Part shown: positions 1-5,920 of the stretch, in pieces
Layout of the letters: each line of letters begins with the position of its first letter
Numbering within the stretch: position 1 is the first letter of the stretch
Assembly (NCBI GenBank): GCA_022712835.1
Contig: JAFLJU010000629.1
Location: 1 to 5,920 of the forward strand
Source of the DNA: Desulfobacteraceae bacterium
Lineage (GTDB): Bacteria; Desulfobacterota; Desulfobacteria; Desulfobacterales; Desulfobacteraceae
Direction: 5' to 3'
Length of the DNA stretch: 5,920 nt
Program-made: the position numbers and the translations under genes
Notes under the pieces: model-generated
Databases searched by the model: none
Told to the model about the DNA's origin: nothing
Seen by the model: the letters and a program-made list of their open reading frames with translations, nothing else

Positions 1-374
1 AATAGGGTATTTTCCGCTTCTTTTGATCGTATAATATCAAACCAGCCGATTTCTCTGTATTTGTTTTGATAAACCCTTGCTCCCAATGTATCGGCGATCA
101 ACTGGGCACCAAGACAGATACCCAGCACAGTTTTTCCTGAAGAAATGGCTTCTTTAATAAACTTTTTCTCAAGTTTCAACCAGGGATAAATTTGTTCATC
201 ATACACTCCCATGGGGCCTCCCATTACAATCAACCAATCAAAATTCTGTGCCGGGGGAAGTTTTTCTTTTTCATATAATTTTGTGCATGTCAGTTCATGC
301 CCTTTTTCAATCAAAAAGTTTTTGATACTGCCGATCCCCTCAAACGGGACATGCTGTAAATAATGAACGCGCAT
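1..374 (-). CDS. Class I glutamine amidotransferase-like protein, N-terminal part (truncated by window edge)
   Basis: The first 124 codons of a minus-strand gene are visible; the C-terminal part lies beyond position 1. The protein begins MRVHYLQHVPFEGIG and has the Rossmann-like start of a class I GATase: a strand ending in VMGGPMGVYDE (residues 50-60, the oxyanion-strand region) and the nucleophile elbow GICLGAQ with Cys87. This matches the stand-alone GMP-synthase-like GATase family (GuaA N-terminal domain relatives), in which Cys87 would attack a glutamine or gamma-glutamyl amide; the His and Glu of the triad would be in the missing part. The start is supported by GGAG (381-384, minus strand) 6 nt upstream. 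It lies 55 bp downstream of the polyferredoxin gene on the same strand with no visible terminator between, so co-transcription is plausible. The substrate cannot be told; such proteins are often annotated as GMP synthase homologues without being the true enzyme. Confidence 0.88.
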   Translation of the reverse strand, partial: MRVHYLQHVPFEGIGSIKNFLIEKGHELTCTKLYEKEKLPPAQNFDWLIVMGGPMGVYDEQIYPWLKLEKKFIKEAISSGKTVLGICLGAQLIADTLGARVYQNKYREIGWFDIIRSKEAENTL

Positions 375-429
375 ATTTATCTCCATATATTAACTTGTAT
401 TGCCGTGGTCATTAAATTGCCAGGTATGG

Positions 430-1554
430 TCATTTTATTTTTTCTTTAAAAGTTTGCATCATTTGAGGTTTTTGTGCCTGGATGTTTCTCATGGCCTTCA
501 TCATTTTCTCCATTTTTTCTGGGTCAACCTGCCCATTTGAGTCCCATGGCTGATTACTTTGTATCACATACCTGAGATAGGCAGGTTTTGTAATTTCATT
601 CTGCCAGTTACCCGATGTTTTGGCCATGGAGATGCCCATGGAAAACATGAAAATCAGTATCAGGGCAATTGTGGTTTGCCCAAGCTGAATATCGCCAGGA
701 GTTAGTGAAAAGCTTAAAGTTTGTTTTTCAGGACAGTTTTTCACACAGGTCATGCATGCCGTACATTCTGAAGAGTGAATGCTTTCCTTCTCCCTGATTT
801 TTATAAGGCTGGGACATTTCTTTTCACACCTGCCGCAATTGGTACAATTGGATGGATTGCGTTTAATCTTACCGATACTCAAAAAGCTGAACACTCCCAG
901 AACAGCTCCATAGGGACATAGATATCTGCACCAAAAATAAGGAACGGCGAATGACAATACAAATAATACAAGGATAACGATCAATGCAGTGTTAGAAATA
1001 TTAGTAAAAAAATGCAACATCTTAACATCTGCAAATCGGTTGTAAGGACTTTGAATAAACTGCTCAATGCTTTGTATGGGCATCTTGTAAAAAATGGACC
1101 ATACAAAGAAACCGGCCAGGCCATATTTGATACTTCTCAATACCACATCCGCCCAAATCGGCAGGACCACTTTCTGTTTAAAGAAGAACCCATTCAATTT
1201 TTCAAAAATATCCGAAAGCAGGCCAATGGGGCAAACCCAACTGCAGAACCCTTTTTTCACGATCAAAGCTGTCATGCAAATGATTGAAAAAATTACCAAT
1301 GCCGACGGATGGATGGTGTTGATTTCTCCGGTAACAAAAAAATATTTCAGGCTGACCAGGGCGCTGATCGGAAGAAAGGCCTCTACACCGGGCGGTCTTT
1401 CAAAGCCGGGGATGATGCCGGTTTCAAGTTGGGCTACAAATGTGTAAAATTGCATCCCGATGGCAAGAACAATAATACATGATAATAATTGAATCAGTCT
1501 TCTTATTGAAAAAAAAGATATTGTTATTTTGTAAATTTCAAACCATTCCTTCAT
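430..1554 (-). CDS. Membrane-bound 4Fe-4S polyferredoxin, NapH/CcoG (RdxA)-like
   Basis: This 374-residue integral membrane iron-sulfur protein probably moves electrons between the quinone pool or a membrane partner and a cytoplasmic or periplasmic acceptor. Hydrophobic segments lie near residues 19-40, 84-101, 137-155, 186-206 and 293-310. Two Cys-x3-Cys-Pro motifs (C104/C108 in CSWVCP and C209/C213 in CRYLCP) follow membrane segments, as in NapH, MauN and NosR-type proteins. They are followed by two classical 4Fe-4S ferredoxin motifs, C237/C240/C243/C247-P and C264/C267/C270/C274-P. After the Fe-S domain there is one more membrane segment and a hydrophilic Met/Lys-rich tail (about 311-374). 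The start has a strong AGGTGG/GAGG Shine-Dalgarno (about 1559-1565, minus strand). It is divergent from the CBS/HPP/hemerythrin/kinase operon, with an FNR-type site at -41.5 of its inferred promoter. The family is clear. The electron donor and acceptor are not, because no nap, nos or cytochrome oxidase genes are in view. I give no symbol for that reason. Confidence 0.9.
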   Translation of the reverse strand: MKEWFEIYKITISFFSIRRLIQLLSCIIVLAIGMQFYTFVAQLETGIIPGFERPPGVEAFLPISALVSLKYFFVTGEINTIHPSALVIFSIICMTALIVKKGFCSWVCPIGLLSDIFEKLNGFFFKQKVVLPIWADVVLRSIKYGLAGFFVWSIFYKMPIQSIEQFIQSPYNRFADVKMLHFFTNISNTALIVILVLFVLSFAVPYFWCRYLCPYGAVLGVFSFLSIGKIKRNPSNCTNCGRCEKKCPSLIKIREKESIHSSECTACMTCVKNCPEKQTLSFSLTPGDIQLGQTTIALILIFMFSMGISMAKTSGNWQNEITKPAYLRYVIQSNQPWDSNGQVDPEKMEKMMKAMRNIQAQKPQMMQTFKEKIK

Positions 1555-1579
1555 AAGACCACCTCTTTTCCATATAATT

Positions 1580-1628
1580 TTTCTTTTTTATACCTTTGTG
1601 GTCAAAAAAGAAACTTGATTTAGATCAA
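1580..1628 (-). promoter_or_regulatory. Inferred class II FNR-type promoter of the polyferredoxin gene
   Basis: Read on the minus strand, a TATAAA hexamer lies at 1592-1587. If it is the -10 box, transcription starts at about 1580 and the centre of the perfect palindrome at 1615-1628 falls exactly at -41.5, the classical class II position for FNR/CRP-family activators. The leader to the ATG at 1554 would be about 25 nt and contains the Shine-Dalgarno. No strong -35 is needed in this geometry. The match is positional inference from sequence, with no transcript data. Confidence 0.6.
1615..1628. promoter_or_regulatory. FNR/CRP-family operator, perfect TTGAT-N4-ATCAA
   Basis: TTGATTTAGATCAA is a perfect match to the FNR consensus half-sites TTGAT and ATCAA with a 4-bp spacer. 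FNR-family regulators (FNR, ANR, DNR, HcpR and relatives) sense O2 or NO. Which family member acts here cannot be told from the site alone, and no regulator gene is in the window. It is the nearer of two sites to the polyferredoxin gene. Confidence 0.72.
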
Positions 1629-1642
1629 TAAATTTGAAAAAC

Positions 1643-1656
1643 TTGATTTAAGTCAA
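1643..1656. promoter_or_regulatory. Second FNR/CRP-family operator, TTGAT-N4-GTCAA
   Basis: TTGATTTAAGTCAA differs from the perfect FNR palindrome by one base in the right half-site. It shares the left half, most of the spacer and flanking bases with the site at 1615-1628 (both are preceded by AAC and followed by T), as if the element were duplicated. The two centres are 28 bp apart, nearly three helical turns, so two dimers would sit on roughly the same face of the DNA. Confidence 0.62.
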
Positions 1657-1691
1657 TGAAATAATCAGAAAAAGTAATTATTTTCATAGTA
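1643..1691 (+). promoter_or_regulatory. Possible class II promoter of the CBS-HPP-hemerythrin-kinase operon
   Basis: Taking the right-hand palindrome (centre 1649.5) as a -41.5 activator site places +1 near 1691 and the -10 at 1679-1684, where the sequence is TATTTT (4 of 6 matches to TATAAT). This mirrors the arrangement on the other strand and would give a leader of about 94 nt before the ATG at 1785. The -10 is weak and CATAGT (1685-1690) is an alternative, so this is a tentative call. Confidence 0.38.
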
Positions 1692-1706
1692 AATGCCGGT
1701 AGTCCA

Positions 1707-1756
1707 TCCAGCAAAACATCTTCAGGAAGCAGTTTTTCTGGAAAACCATTTTTTTT
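1707..1756 (+). promoter_or_regulatory. Leader hairpin followed by a T8 run (possible attenuator)
   Basis: TCCAG (1707-1711) can pair with CTGGA (1738-1742), and AAAAC (1713-1717) with GTTTT (1732-1736), around a single mismatch (1712/1737). A small CTT/AAG pairing is possible inside the loop. A run of eight T follows at 1749-1756, six bases after the stem. The stem is AT-rich and the T run is not directly adjacent, so it would be a poor terminator. It could be a leader structure or chance. It lies between the inferred operon promoter and the CBS gene. Confidence 0.25.
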
Positions 1757-1784
1757 ATCCAAACCTTTTTACAAGAGGGATGAT

Positions 1785-2378
1785 ATGAAATTTAGTTCAC
1801 TCAATGAATGCACCCTGCCAATTTCAGACGAAGATATTATTCAGGCCATGAAACAAATACCAGGGTATCTGGATATTACACCTTCGGATTTTATGGAAGT
1901 TTATCTTGTGGCCTTTGATCAAGCCATGTCCCGGTTGAAAAACGCCATCACAGCAGATCAGATCATGACCCGAAGTGTCATCACAGTAAGCGAAAATGCT
2001 CCACTTATGGAAGTGGCAAAAAAAATGGCCGACAACAAGATTTCAGGCCTTCCGGTTCTCAAAGATGATCAGACGGTTACAGGTGTCATATCTGAAAAAG
2101 ATTTTCTAAAAAGGATGAATGATGATCATGCGCCGACTTTTATGCGTGTTGTTTTACAATGCCTTGAAACAACAGGCTGTATTGCAGCGGACTTTAAAAA
2201 TCTTACGGCCTCAGATATCATGTCTTCTCCCTGCATCACCATCGAGCCCCACACCCCTTTAATGGAAATTACCACCCTTCTGGATCAGAAAAACATCAAC
2301 AGGGTGCCGGTAATTGATGATAAGCTAAAACTTGTGGGAATTATTGCCCGATCAGACATTGTTCAGACCATGTGTTAG
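1785..2378 (+). CDS. CBS-domain pair protein with short N-terminal helical region
   Basis: This 197-residue soluble protein contains two CBS domains that should fold together as a Bateman module binding adenylates (AMP, ATP or similar). CBS1 covers about residues 56-112 (MTRSVITVSENAPLMEVAKK, then SGLPV and GVISEKD); CBS2 covers about 141-196 (SDIMSSPCITIEPHTPLMEI, then NRVPVID and GIIARSD). Both end in the G-h-x4-D signature (D106 and D191) typical of ribose-contacting CBS sites. The first ~50 residues (ISDEDIIQAMKQIPGYLDIT and onward) look helical and I do not recognise them as a named domain; a ~28-residue linker separates the CBS units. The ATG is preceded by GAGGG (about 1775-1779). It lies 27 nt upstream of an HPP-family gene. 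HPP and CBS domains are known to occur fused in one protein, so this is probably the regulatory subunit of that membrane protein. That role is inference. Confidence 0.88.
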   Translation: MKFSSLNECTLPISDEDIIQAMKQIPGYLDITPSDFMEVYLVAFDQAMSRLKNAITADQIMTRSVITVSENAPLMEVAKKMADNKISGLPVLKDDQTVTGVISEKDFLKRMNDDHAPTFMRVVLQCLETTGCIAADFKNLTASDIMSSPCITIEPHTPLMEITTLLDQKNINRVPVIDDKLKLVGIIARSDIVQTMC

Positions 2379-2405
2379 TCAATAAAAGCTAGGAGATGTG
2401 ATTGA

Positions 2406-2942
2406 ATGTTGTTTTTCAGCAAAATGAAAGGGGGGGGCCAGAGTCCCCCAGCGGTTGGGTTTTCAGAGATCGCCTGGTCATGGGTGGGTGCTCTTTTAGG
2501 CATAGCACCGGTGGCTTTTTTGCACTATAATCTGTTTAGCGGTGATGATCTGGTATATATCATCGGATCTTTTGGGGCTTCAGCCGTATTAATATACGGT
2601 GCGGTCAGAAGTCCTTTGGCACAACCCAGGAACCTTGTGGGCGGGCATGTCATCTCGGCCCTCATTGGAGTAATTGCCTATAAATTATTTTATCCTTTTC
2701 CCTGGTTTGCTTCCTCGATTGCCGTTGCCACAGCAATTGCCGCCATGCATGCAACCAAAACACTGCATCCTCCCGGAGGGGCAACTGCGTTGATTGCTGT
2801 TATCGGCAGTGAAAAAATCCATGACCTTGGTTTTTTATATGTGTTCATTCCCGTTGGCGCCGGGGTTTTGATCATGCTGGTCGTGGCCTTGATCGTCAAT
2901 AATCTGGCAACCTCAAGAAAGTACCCTGAATTTTGGTTTTAA
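2406..2942 (+). CDS. HPP-family integral membrane protein
   Basis: This 178-residue, mostly hydrophobic protein matches the HPP family (Pfam HPP) in length and motifs. The diagnostic His-Pro-Pro lies at residues 121-123 in KTLHPPGGATALIAVIG, and the conserved SPLAQPRNLVGGH stretch is at 69-81. Membrane segments fall near 22-41, 48-67, 79-93, 103-118 and 142-166; the C-terminus is short and charged (SRKYPEFWF). HPP proteins of cyanobacteria and plant plastids have been reported to transport nitrite; the substrate here is unknown, but a small anion would fit the FNR-type control and the hemerythrin next door. AGGAG (2391-2395) lies 10 nt before the ATG. The next gene begins 19 nt after the stop, so the two are surely in one operon. 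An eight-G run lies within codons 8-11. Family assignment is firm; transport role is inferred. Confidence 0.9.
   Translation: MLFFSKMKGGGQSPPAVGFSEIAWSWVGALLGIAPVAFLHYNLFSGDDLVYIIGSFGASAVLIYGAVRSPLAQPRNLVGGHVISALIGVIAYKLFYPFPWFASSIAVATAIAAMHATKTLHPPGGATALIAVIGSEKIHDLGFLYVFIPVGAGVLIMLVVALIVNNLATSRKYPEFWF
2430..2437 (+). repeat. G8 homopolymer near the 5' end of the HPP gene
   Basis: Eight consecutive G occupy codons 8-11 of the HPP gene (AAG GGG GGG GGC) and are followed 7 bases after the run by CCCCC (2445-2449), which could fold back on it just after the ribosome start region. Gain or loss of one G would frameshift the whole membrane protein. No other homopolymeric G tract of this length is visible in the window. 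Confidence 0.85.
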
Positions 2943-2961
2943 CGCTTTACAGGGAGAGTCA

Positions 2962-3525
2962 ATGATGAAAGTAACCCAGACCTTAACCGATGAGCACCTC
3001 TTAATACTGAAAGTCCTCCATATGCTCAATCAGTCCAGAAAACAGCTTGAAAATGGTAAATTTATACCAGGTGAATTTTATGAGAAGGCCATGATTTTCT
3101 GTTCGGATTTTGCGGATCAGTTTCATCATTTTAAAGAAGAATTTTTATTATTTGGTCTTTTGTCCTATAAAAAACAAGGGGAATTGGATTCAGCCATGGG
3201 CACGCTGCGGTATCAGCATGAGCGCTGCAAGCATTGTATTGGTCAGATTAAAAAAGCCTTGAAAGGGTATGGAAATAAAGAAGAGATGTCCATCACATTT
3301 CTCCTGGAAAGTCTGTCTATTTATGTATCACTTCTGCGTCGTCATATTTATCTGGAAGATCAGATATTTTTTCCCATGGCAGAAAAAGCATTGTCACAAG
3401 AAGAAAAGGAATCCTTAGCCGAGCAATTTTCAGATGAAGAACTCAGATTAGGAACAAGAGAAACTATATTCGCTAGGAATCAAATCATTGTTGAGGATCT
3501 TGAACGGATAATGCGATCGAGGTGA
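2962..3525 (+). CDS. Hemerythrin HHE cation-binding domain protein
   Basis: This 187-residue soluble four-helix-bundle protein carries the hemerythrin/HHE ligand pattern: H12 in TDEHLLILKVLH, H55/H56 with E59/E60 in FHHFKEE, H86 with E87 in RYQHERC, and H128 with E132/D133 in RRHIYLEDQIFFP. These should bind a non-heme di-iron centre, which in known members binds O2 or NO or senses iron and oxygen. The closest named type is the DcrH/YtfE-like stand-alone HHE group, but the exact role (O2 or NO scavenging, Fe-S repair, sensing) cannot be decided from sequence. The last ~45 residues are charged and helical (EEKESLAEQFSDEELRL). GGGAG precedes tandem ATG codons at 2962 and 2965; I use the first, though either would give the same domain. 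The downstream kinase gene starts 3 nt after its stop and its Shine-Dalgarno lies inside this gene's last codons, so the two are probably translationally coupled. Confidence 0.92.
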   Translation: MMKVTQTLTDEHLLILKVLHMLNQSRKQLENGKFIPGEFYEKAMIFCSDFADQFHHFKEEFLLFGLLSYKKQGELDSAMGTLRYQHERCKHCIGQIKKALKGYGNKEEMSITFLLESLSIYVSLLRRHIYLEDQIFFPMAEKALSQEEKESLAEQFSDEELRLGTRETIFARNQIIVEDLERIMRSR

Positions 3526-3528
3526 CCT

Positions 3529-5920
3529 ATGGTGCGAAAGAAAAATTGTTGGGAATATATGCAGTGCGGACGTGAAGCCGGTGGTGAGAATGCTCTGGAA
3601 CTGGGAATTTGTCCGGCTTCTGTGGACGCATCCCATGAGGGTATAAACTCAGGCAGCCATGCTGGCAGGTTTTGCTGGGCAGTGGCCGGTACCATGTGTG
3701 ACGGAACCGTACAGGGAACCTTTGCCGAAAAAAGAAAAAGTTGCACCCAATGTCATTTTTACAATGAAGTCAGAGCCCAGGAAGGAAGTCTGAACATACG
3801 GACAAAATTTTTACGATTTGTCCAGCCCTATTCACAATCATCCATACTGAAAAATTTAATCTTAAGGCAGATCCACCAGGGAAAACGATTTATCCGCCAG
3901 GGGGAAATAACACAGACCGCCTATATTATCCAGCTGGGGTCTTGCATGGAACTTGTTGAGAAAAAAGGCGTTCTTTATCCGGTGGGTCATCGGGGAGAAG
4001 GGGATATTGTCGGGATGATTTCTCTTGTCACCGGAGAACCAATGGGATTTCATGTAGAAGCGGAAACTCAAATGAATGTGTGGGAAATTAAAAAAAAAGA
4101 CTTTAATCGCATCCCCAAACAAGATCCGGATCTGTTCGCTTTTTTAACAGAACTTGTTGCCGACCGATTTGACCGCAAAGGCCCTATTGCAGAAAGGACC
4201 ATTGGTAAATATCTGGTCACTGACTTTCTCGGGAGAGGTGGGTATAGTATTGTCTACAAGGGAATTCATTCTGAACTTGAAAGACCTGTTGCCATAAAAA
4301 TGATGCGCCACCACCTGTCCATGCAAGAAGACTTCATGCTAAATTTCCACAACGAAGCCAAGTTAATTGCCCGGCTGAATCATGCCAACATCGTCACCAT
4401 TTTTGATATTGAGGTTAGATATAAGACTTTGTTTATCATCTACGAATACCTTGACGGGGAGTCTTTGGAGGACATGATAAAGCGGTTGAAAACTATCCCG
4501 CCTGATCAGGCATTGCATTTTTTGCGTCAACTGGCATCTGCCATGGCGTTTGCCGGTGAAAAAGGACTCATCCATCGGGATATCAATCCTTCCAACGTCA
4601 TCGTGTTGGCCCAGGATCAAATCAAATTGATCGATTTCGGTCTGGCGTGTCTCCTGGGTACGGATGATTTTTTGATGGGGGGAAATTTTAACTACCTTGC
4701 ACCGGAACAAATCGATGGAGAACCTGCTGATTTCAGAAGTGATATATACTCTCTGGGCATTACCGCCTTTCAAATGGTCACAGGCCAACTCCCATTTTCA
4801 TCTGATAATCAAGCAATACTGATGAAGATGATGAGGAAGTCACCCATACCTGATCCTGGAAAAATAGCAAAGAATCTGCCTGAAAAGTTGAGGCTATTCA
4901 TCTTAAAGGCCTGTGAAAAAAATCCAAAAGATCGGTTTCAAACACCGGATCAAATAACAGACTATCTTGGCTTGACCTTTCCCGGCCGGGGATCACTATC
5001 TTCAGGGTTGAAAAGGGAAAATATCCGAACCATTAAATTTGAATTTGATCCGGATAAAGAAAATGACTTTTTAATTTTGCAAAAAAAAATAGACAAACTT
5101 GTCAAAAAAACAGATGGCATTTCCATAATTAACAGCGGGGACAAGATTATCACAACTGAAAATAATGTTCTGTGGAGACAAAAACAGGATGTCCTGCAAA
5201 CAAAAAAAATAGAAGTAGCGGCACAAACCGACATTGGTTTAGAACGAAAAACCAATCAAGACCGGTATGCCATGCGTTGTTTTTCAGATGACACAATCCT
5301 GATGGCGATTGCGGATGGTCTTGGCGGCGAACCAGGAGGAGAAATAGCCTCTGACTATGTCATGGAAGAATTAAAACAATTGACAGACATAGGGTGTACC
5401 CAAACTGCTAAAGACCCATCCTTCTTTTTTGGAAAAATGGATCAAATGCTTTGTGCTCTTGCGGAAAAAAATCATGGGTTGAATGGGATGGCAACAACGC
5501 TTATATCTATATTCATTAAAAATCATGTCGCATCCTGGTGTCATTCAGGGGATAGCCGTCTGTATCTCTTAAGAAAAAATCGAATACGGCAAATTACCCA
5601 GGACCAAACGCTTGCCCGATTTTTAATACAGGAAGGCGAACTGACAAAATGCCAGGCGAAACAGCATTATTCAAAAGATGTAATCGATCAATGTGTTGGT
5701 TGCCAGGATGTGACGCCTGAATCCGGGAAGATTCAACTTAAATCCGATGACATGCTCATTTTAGCTTCAGACGGTCTTTACCGGTCAATAACTGAAGAAG
5801 AAATATGTCGGATAATCTCCCAGTTTCCAAAACCTGAGAAGGCAGCTGATGCATTAATCAAGTTATCTCTCGATGCCGGAGGGAAAGATAATATCACGGT
5901 GGTTATCGGCAAAATTCATT
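3529..5920 (+). CDS. Two-CW / cNMP-binding-like / Ser-Thr kinase / PP2C phosphatase multidomain protein (3' end beyond window)
   Basis: One open frame of at least 797 codons, unbroken to the window edge. (1) Residues 1-85: Cys-rich 'two-CW' domain with C7-W8, C13, C28, C49-W50, C57, C72 and C75, probably metal- or redox-active. (2) About 95-215: CRP-like cyclic-nucleotide-binding fold; its phosphate-cassette region (GDIVGMISL, 158-166) is followed by PMGFHV where cAMP binders have Arg, so classical cAMP binding is doubtful. (3) About 226-480: Hanks kinase with LGRGGYSIVYKG, VAIK (K257), E276, HRDINPSN (D351, N356), DFG (D369), APE (391-393) and SDIYSLG (D405); the usual catalytic-loop Lys is Asn353. 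(4) 482-561: linker, no domain recognised. (5) About 562-797: PP2C phosphatase with NQD (D578), ADGLGG (D596), SGDSR (674-677), SDG (D748) and KDN (D787), all metal Asp present. The start has GAGGTG (3519-3524). No membrane segment is seen, so it should be cytoplasmic. The PP2C core looks nearly complete at the edge. Confidence 0.93.
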   Translation, partial: MVRKKNCWEYMQCGREAGGENALELGICPASVDASHEGINSGSHAGRFCWAVAGTMCDGTVQGTFAEKRKSCTQCHFYNEVRAQEGSLNIRTKFLRFVQPYSQSSILKNLILRQIHQGKRFIRQGEITQTAYIIQLGSCMELVEKKGVLYPVGHRGEGDIVGMISLVTGEPMGFHVEAETQMNVWEIKKKDFNRIPKQDPDLFAFLTELVADRFDRKGPIAERTIGKYLVTDFLGRGGYSIVYKGIHSELERPVAIKMMRHHLSMQEDFMLNFHNEAKLIARLNHANIVTIFDIEVRYKTLFIIYEYLDGESLEDMIKRLKTIPPDQALHFLRQLASAMAFAGEKGLIHRDINPSNVIVLAQDQIKLIDFGLACLLGTDDFLMGGNFNYLAPEQIDGEPADFRSDIYSLGITAFQMVTGQLPFSSDNQAILMKMMRKSPIPDPGKIAKNLPEKLRLFILKACEKNPKDRFQTPDQITDYLGLTFPGRGSLSSGLKRENIRTIKFEFDPDKENDFLILQKKIDKLVKKTDGISIINSGDKIITTENNVLWRQKQDVLQTKKIEVAAQTDIGLERKTNQDRYAMRCFSDDTILMAIADGLGGEPGGEIASDYVMEELKQLTDIGCTQTAKDPSFFFGKMDQMLCALAEKNHGLNGMATTLISIFIKNHVASWCHSGDSRLYLLRKNRIRQITQDQTLARFLIQEGELTKCQAKQHYSKDVIDQCVGCQDVTPESGKIQLKSDDMLILASDGLYRSITEEEICRIISQFPKPEKAADALIKLSLDAGGKDNITVVIGKIH

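Follow-up and report, generated by a model that had tools for sequence, protein, structure and literature searches.

The 5,920-nucleotide stretch of Desulfobacteraceae bacterium DNA analysed here (GenBank assembly GCA_022712835.1, contig JAFLJU010000629.1, positions 1 to 5,920 of the forward strand; hereafter the window) closes with a gene that joins a Hanks-type Ser/Thr protein kinase to a PP2C-type protein phosphatase behind two putative sensor domains, the two-CW domain and a CRP-like fold. The locus raises the question of whether the two opposed enzymes form a signalling switch, to which signal such a switch would respond, and whether their fusion in one chain is essential to it. We conclude that the kinase and the phosphatase probably belong to an undescribed stress-signalling switch. 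The evidence comes from the domains and residues of the protein, its relatives, and the genes and promoter boxes around it.

Domain organization and catalytic residues

The protein and its parts are located in the window as follows.

3529..5919, plus strand: two-CW/CRP-fold/Hanks kinase/linker/PP2C protein, 797 codons, ATG start
3541..3777, plus strand: two-CW domain, residues 5–83 (NF045718, 99.8 bits, above the cut-off of 35)
3865..4122, plus strand: CRP-fold domain of the cyclic nucleotide monophosphate (cNMP)-binding type, residues 113–198 (PF00027, 41.6 bits, above the cut-off of 27.5)
4216..4944, plus strand: Hanks-type Ser/Thr kinase domain, PknB-like, residues 230–472 (PF00069, 173.1 bits against a cut-off of 31.7)
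4987..5208, plus strand: linker, residues 487–560, the site of the kinase/PP2C gene split in relatives
5224..5907, plus strand: PP2C phosphatase domain with the metal-binding Asp residues, residues 566–793 (PF00481, PF13672, and NF033484)

The frame contained zero internal stop codons, and the window ended one base past codon 797, with the stop codon lying beyond it. A preliminary description of the window had read these five parts in a single uninterrupted frame, which open reading frame and profile searches confirmed; the domain anatomy listed above is nearly certain. Both Pfam PP2C profiles scored above their gathering scores (PF00481, 40.0 against 20.3 bits; PF13672, 38.3 against 24 bits), and the PknB-like kinase and PP2C assignments agreed with the structural matches of a PDB sequence search. 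The AlphaFold2 model of the full protein, built with 63 sequences, had a mean predicted local distance difference test (pLDDT) value of 85.1 and a predicted TM-score of 0.58. Its top Foldseek matches were cGMP-dependent protein kinases (PKG) across the CRP-fold/kinase stretch, with a root-mean-square deviation (rmsd) near 20 Å; therefore, the placement of the domains in the model is not meaningful. The kinase matched PknB with target TM-scores reaching 0.89, and PP2C matched PstP with 0.90. The folds of the model thus correspond to PKG, PknB, and PstP. Tandem repeats were searched for, and none were found.

We counted kinase-side residues in an alignment of 185 sequences and PP2C-side residues in one of 212 sequences. 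The kinase core was present in the window protein. K257 (VAIK), E276 of the C-helix, and D351 (HRD) occurred in all 185 sequences, and N356, the catalytic Asn, and D369 (DFG) in 184 each. The metal-binding Asp residues of PP2C were also conserved: D596 in 212 of 212 sequences, D578 in 209 (3 gaps), and D748 and D787 in 211 each (1 gap each). These positions, apart from E276 and N356, are the core residues that the preliminary description had named, and they are present in the window protein and conserved in its relatives.

Two-CW domain

The two-CW domain carries seven conserved cysteines (residues 7, 13, 28, 49, 57, 72, and 75) together with W8 and W50. Five of the cysteines were found in 185/185 sequences, C57 in 183 (Ser in 2), and C7 in 168; the 17 rows lacking C7 are protein records that begin only at the Met preceding C13, a few residues on. 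When 72 two-CW domains were aligned separately, all seven cysteines and both tryptophans were invariant. Modelled alone, the domain gave a confident structure (pLDDT 84.6), for which a comparison with the PDB returned a single Foldseek match at E ≤ 10 (E 9.8) and none by VIA-align. The sequence of the domain gave no PDB profile match at E ≤ 1 and no Pfam match at E ≤ 1. The cysteines may hold a metal or a cluster, or serve as redox thiols.

Two-CW matches were also found on contigs labelled Chloroflexi, Bacteroidales, and Nitrospirota (L005, L006, and L007), the range read in L005 containing stop codons. The two-CW domain is probably distributed more widely than the present kinase family.

Fused and separate forms of the kinase–phosphatase pair

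A search of 5.8 billion proteins gave 1444 relatives at E ≤ 1e-20 among 7984 scored candidates, and among the matches listed (120 of the 1444 relatives), 47 exceeded 660 amino acids, which is the fused length. In genomes sampled around a Desulfobacula genome, matches were obtained in 24/86 genomes of its family-level group (E ≤ 1e-150), 58/389 of its order sample (E ≤ 1e-140), and 6/395 of its phylum sample (E ≤ 1e-120). We then compared 65 rows, consisting of 64 loci and the window, which were chosen as the best family- and order-level matches and are mutually related rather than independent; four listed order-level matches were left out. The presence of PP2C, hemerythrin, norB, and hcp was judged by tblastn, by which divergent genes may be missed.

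The two enzymes were fused in 13 of the 65 loci (window included) and encoded by adjacent separate genes in 31, and 6 loci were undecidable, 3 because the contig ends there and 3 because the DNA downstream is too short. Fusions other than that of the window include L038 and L047, the latter on a contig of 4.8 Mb (genome G062). At least 13 changes between the fused and non-fused states were required on a quick maximum-likelihood tree built from 86 kinases, with 27 of its 83 inner branches open and the unfused state of protein-only rows taken from the length of the open reading frame. Because 13 loci are fused, 31 carry adjacent genes, and at least 13 changes are required on the tree, these comparisons indicate that the kinase–PP2C pair is the conserved unit and that tethering has been gained and lost repeatedly. 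Two claims of the preliminary description found no support at this point. The architecture is not unique, given the full-length fused homologues and the 13 fused loci in the survey, and fusion is not supported as the essential feature, given the 31 loci with separate genes and the unfused state of the nearest rows to the window.

A second two-CW match lay 1.4–2 kb past the kinase start in 14/65 loci, either within a fused protein or heading the separate PP2C gene; L083, in which PP2C was not assessable, is among the 14. In L057, no PP2C was found past the kinase stop at 9617, and a remnant of the PP2C N-terminal stretch (SPWDRKQD) persists there.

The fusion in the window

The fusion in the window depends on a single base within the linker, and the following features bear on it.

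5137..5140, plus strand: GGGG run, at which one G more closes the kinase frame after a few further codons
5146..5151, plus strand: ATT-ATC codons, a possible internal PP2C start, where two split relatives appear to begin PP2C

The protein tails of the nearest relatives, P0002 (90%) and P0003 (86%), match the window as read with five G. The window with one extra G gives SGGQDYHN, P0002 ends in NGGQDYHN, and P0003 in NGGEDYHN; the five-G state of the two relatives is taken from these protein tails, not from DNA. In the tree, neither the nearest rows P0002 and P0003 (Shimodaira–Hasegawa-like approximate likelihood ratio test, SH-aLRT, 99) nor the pair that follows, L039/P0006 (SH-aLRT 100), are fused, and the window is the sole fused row within its supported five-row clade. 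Because the nearest relatives read as the one-base-longer split version, the fusion in the window would be either a recent one-base deletion that joined two genes or a one-base sequence error.

We give slightly less than an even chance to the second possibility, that of a sequence or assembly error over a true GGGGG, with two overlapping or adjacent genes such as the closest relatives appear to carry. The agreement of both relatives with the window read with an extra G (GGQDYHN and GGEDYHN against GGQDYHN) and the isolated position of the window in its clade argue for such an error. However, the window linker aligns without gaps to the linker of the independently fused homologue L038/P0001 (67–68%), and fused forms are known elsewhere, as in L047 on its long contig.

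In regards to the PP2C start, the separate PP2C genes of L039 (8493-8630) and L058 (reverse strand, near 9466-9542) have no ATG, GTG, or TTG ahead of the domain. In both loci, ATT/ATC codons stand behind a Shine-Dalgarno-like stretch, which is strongest in L058 (AAGGAGG); no strong Shine-Dalgarno sequence precedes position 5146 in the window. Only 2 of the 31 split loci are without any canonical PP2C start. The annotated homologues P0124, P0125, and P0133 begin inside the PP2C domain, so that the NQD motif is lost. L039 and L058 led us to consider programmed frameshifting or stop readthrough at the join, but the two genes do not stand in a constant frame relation (0 with a stop, +1, and +2), which makes either less likely, and we remark in passing that a non-canonical ATT/ATC start would fit better.

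Gene neighbourhood and promoter boxes

Upstream of the kinase gene, the window contains two promoter boxes and three genes on the same strand, preceded by a gene on the opposite strand.

430-1554, minus strand: NapH-like 4Fe-4S membrane protein
1615..1628, plus strand: FNR/DNR/HcpR-type box TTGATTTAGATCAA, preceding the CBS gene
1643..1656, plus strand: second FNR/DNR/HcpR-type box TTGATTTAAGTCAA, preceding the CBS gene, with the HcpR-type half GTCAA
1785..2378, plus strand: protein with two CBS domains (PF00571, 106.4 bits)
2406..2942, plus strand: HPP-family membrane protein (PF04982, 203.5 bits)
2962..3525, plus strand: hemerythrin-domain protein of 187 amino acids (PF01814, 47.3 bits), 3 bases ahead of the kinase gene

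The placement of the kinase behind a hemerythrin, pointed out in the preliminary description, is a conserved adjacency. Of 60 assessable loci, counting the window, 33 had a hemerythrin gene no more than 250 bases ahead of the kinase, an assessable locus having at least 700 bases before it (5 more had too little DNA); for the 24 family-level loci, it was directly upstream in 22 of the 23 assessable. The hemerythrin of the window is not RIC/YtfE by TIGR03652 (18.8 bits against a cut-off of 204.7). HPP was found within 3 kb upstream in 17/65 loci and CBS within 3.5 kb upstream in 16/65. P0126 (342 amino acids) is a hemerythrin–PP2C fusion, and P0127 (268 amino acids) is a PP2C whose start resembles the CBS protein of the cluster (MKLSSLNECT); from these two proteins, the cluster seems to have been rearranged with PP2C retained.

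Genes similar to norB were near the kinase in 8 loci (partial in L041, L060, and L081) and genes similar to hcp in 5 (partial in L058 and L110), and one or the other was present in 10/65 loci; Pfam matched NorB in L058 and Hcp in L048. Across all 28 genomes searched, norB was found in 9 and was adjacent to the kinase in 6, four of the 28 having been picked because norB was already known to adjoin the kinase there. In 129 further neighbouring open reading frames from 17 loci, a Pfam scan found Fer4_7 in 8, COX1 in 4, and Prismane in 3, and no dominant neighbour family beyond 4Fe-4S domains. The NapH-like protein of the window is 86% identical to its L053 counterpart, against just 48–53% for the hemerythrin and the kinase of the same two loci, and horizontal exchange is possible.

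Of the two boxes, TTGATTTAGATCAA matches the FNR-type box TTGATnnnnATCAA perfectly. Two boxes were present in the window against 0.11 expected by chance, and 0 of 200 shuffles contained two. Of the 60 loci in which 150 bases or more precede the cluster, 21 carried the box TTGAYNNNNRTCAA ahead of it. The density of the box was 27 sites in 18.0 kb before clusters compared with 28 sites (28 or 29, by how edges are marked) in the remaining 680.6 kb, a 681-kb background that includes coding DNA. In intergenic DNA only, 25 sites in 11.2 kb compared with 25 in 89.0 kb (8-fold), this background containing likely functional sites. Some of the boxes elsewhere lay just upstream of hcp (L044 and L048), norB (L059), or HPP (L050).

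These boxes resemble published sites. The motif assigned to HcpR of delta-proteobacteria other than Desulfovibrio is the FNR-like wyTTGACnnnnGTCAArw, the motif of the nitric oxide (NO) regulator DNR is similar to the FNR box TTGATnnnnATCAA, and hemerythrin-like genes are frequent in predicted HcpR regulons (PMC1274295). Ddes_0524, an HPP-family gene of D. desulfuricans that is grouped with the genes of hcpR1, is induced by NO with a log2 fold change of 1.75 (PMC5701242).

Proposed mechanism and alternatives

We propose a writer–eraser module, found for the most part in the order to which the sulfate reducer Desulfobacula belongs. In response to NO, nitrite, or redox stress, a regulator of the FNR/HcpR type would induce the CBS–HPP–hemerythrin–kinase/PP2C cluster, and the cysteine-rich two-CW and CRP-fold domains, probably with the hemerythrin, would sense the stress, the ligand of the CRP fold probably not being a canonical cyclic nucleotide. 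These sensors would set the balance between the kinase and PP2C on shared substrates. The two enzymes would act as a pair, whether fused or encoded by neighbouring genes, and the fusion in the window would be a late variant or a one-base error. As a whole, this explanation, a reversible Ser/Thr phospho-switch that is induced by, and probably senses, NO or redox stress, stands in our judgement at an even chance; NO as the signal falls somewhat short of that.

The predicted signal, activity, coupling, and substrates draw on the observed domains, catalytic residues, gene order, and box enrichment. The explanation is supported because the domains and residues are in place with PKG, PknB, and PstP folds and the kinase and PP2C are paired in 13 + 31 of the 65 loci; because the hemerythrin is adjacent and, in P0126, fused to PP2C, and the boxes are enriched; and because norB or hcp lies near the kinase in ten loci, in line with the published HcpR motif and regulons and the NO-induced Ddes_0524.

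The following observations weigh against it. No PP2C was found nearby by tblastn in 15/65 loci, no hemerythrin at 27/60 assessable loci, and no TTGAYNNNNRTCAA box at 39/60. Only 5 of the 24 family-level genomes gave a norB match (E ≤ 1e-40), adjacent to the kinase in only 2, and hcp-type matches occurred in 28/28 genomes, mostly away from the kinase. Judged from its sequence, the kinase is atypical because the catalytic-loop Lys of HRDxK, which is usual in Ser/Thr kinases, is replaced by Asn (HRDIN, N353; N in 169/185 and K in 2/185), and the P+1 Thr is also Asn in the window protein (Thr in 63/185). Finally, the TTGAYNNNNRTCAA box is common to O2-type (FNR) and NO-type regulators, and the signal could be oxygen.

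The last point leads to an oxygen- or general redox-responsive module that is not specific for NO, in which the boxes would be FNR sites and the hemerythrin would sense O2. Hemerythrin domains can bind O2, and this counts for such a module. So does the perfect agreement of TTGATTTAGATCAA with the FNR consensus TTGATnnnnATCAA given in PMC1274295. However, ten loci have norB or hcp near the kinase, in three of them closely preceded by the same box, the second box of the window has the HcpR-type half GTCAA, and the NO regulator DNR itself uses an FNR-like box (PMC1274295). We regard the oxygen-responsive module as somewhat unlikely. A further reading is a nitrosative-stress pathway of sulfate reducers that would operate through Ser/Thr phosphorylation. 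In it, an NO- or redox-sensing hemerythrin and the two-CW domain would gate the kinase and PP2C within an HcpR-type regulon, and the ratio of the two enzymes would be tuned by a labile gene junction, which may be a fusion, an overlap, or a PP2C gene that begins with AUU/AUC rather than AUG/GUG/UUG. This reading is unlikely in our view.

Another alternative is a PKG-like kinase/phosphatase gated by a cyclic nucleotide, which would switch the kinase on and the phosphatase off. The Glu and Arg of the phosphate-binding cassette are the cyclic-nucleotide-binding motif, and both positions are Met in the window protein. The Glu (position 163) was found in 1/185 sequences, only in the distant member L117, and the Arg (position 172) was present in 78/185 and absent in 107/185. 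Because the cassette Glu is missing in 184/185 sequences and the Arg in 107/185, the CRP fold is unlikely to bind a canonical cyclic nucleotide. Canonical cNMP sensing, which the preliminary description had implied in its domain label, was rejected on the basis of these binding residues. Rice possesses a PKG with PP2C, whose domain order differs from that of the window protein. This rice protein combines a cGMP-regulated kinase and PP2C with opposite cGMP responses in one chain and is termed a 'molecular switch' (Shen 2019, as described in PMC11638329); it is eukaryotic and cGMP-responsive, whereas the window protein is without the nucleotide-binding Glu. The rice precedent and the PKG matches of the full model favour a PKG-like switch, but the rmsd near 20 Å over the two-domain stretch and the missing Glu make it quite improbable.

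A phage-defence kinase similar to PD-T4-6 is rejected as hardly credible: PADLOC PD-T4-6 models match the window kinase domain, but the matches listed (25 of 38) fall within or close to the generic kinase domain, and the scanned neighbours include respiratory, ferredoxin, and stress genes. A relation to phage proteins was likewise rejected, as the five PHROGs matches each covered the kinase or PP2C only.

Comparison with known systems and significance

The gene pairs of Stp1/IreP PP2C and Stk1/PknB kinase resemble the window in combining a related Hanks kinase and PP2C with PknB and PstP folds. Unlike these pairs, the window protein had no PASTA repeats among its Pfam matches, it scored under both curated NCBIfam cut-offs (NF033484 over residues 566–793, 191.9 bits against 230; PASTA kinase model NF033483, 250.1 bits against 450), the two-CW and CRP-fold domains are additional, and the enzymes are fused in some members. 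In a Pseudomonas fusion, the two enzymes share a single chain as in the window, but PP2C is N-terminal to the kinase (Krupa and Srinivasan 2005, PMC1262709), and the available part of that paper mentions no two-CW or CRP-fold domain. The order that the preliminary description had called usual, PP2C followed by the kinase, and reversed here, agrees with this one printed bacterial case. A myxobacterial PP2C with a C-terminal cNMP domain shares PP2C and the cNMP fold with the window protein, and the available text mentions no kinase in its chain (PMC2887360). In a 2025 survey of bacterial PP2C, Pkinase is among the partner domains, mainly in Pseudomonadota, and the partner domains of the eight PP2C proteins drawn in its Fig. 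5B include Pkinase and cNMP_binding, not necessarily in one protein (PMC12088040). The HcpR regulons share the FNR-like box, hcp, and hemerythrin-like genes with the loci described here, but no kinase/PP2C member was seen in the available part of their description (PMC1274295).

No description of the two-CW/CRP-fold/kinase/PP2C combination was found in the open-access literature searched, and the proposal of an undescribed signalling system survives to that extent. Overall, the preliminary description held in regards to the intact fused anatomy, the domain order, the hemerythrin adjacency, and the undescribed state of the system, and was not supported in regards to uniqueness, cNMP sensing, and fusion as the essential feature.

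In PMC5701242 and PMC1274295, the NO response of sulfate reducers is treated in terms of transcription factors. If the proposed mechanism is true, it would add a layer of reversible protein phosphorylation to this response. It would also give the two-CW domain, whose seven cysteines are conserved and for which our searches returned no relative of known structure, its first testable role. The kinase and PP2C, which have been joined and separated repeatedly, provide a natural test of whether tethering matters in such switches.

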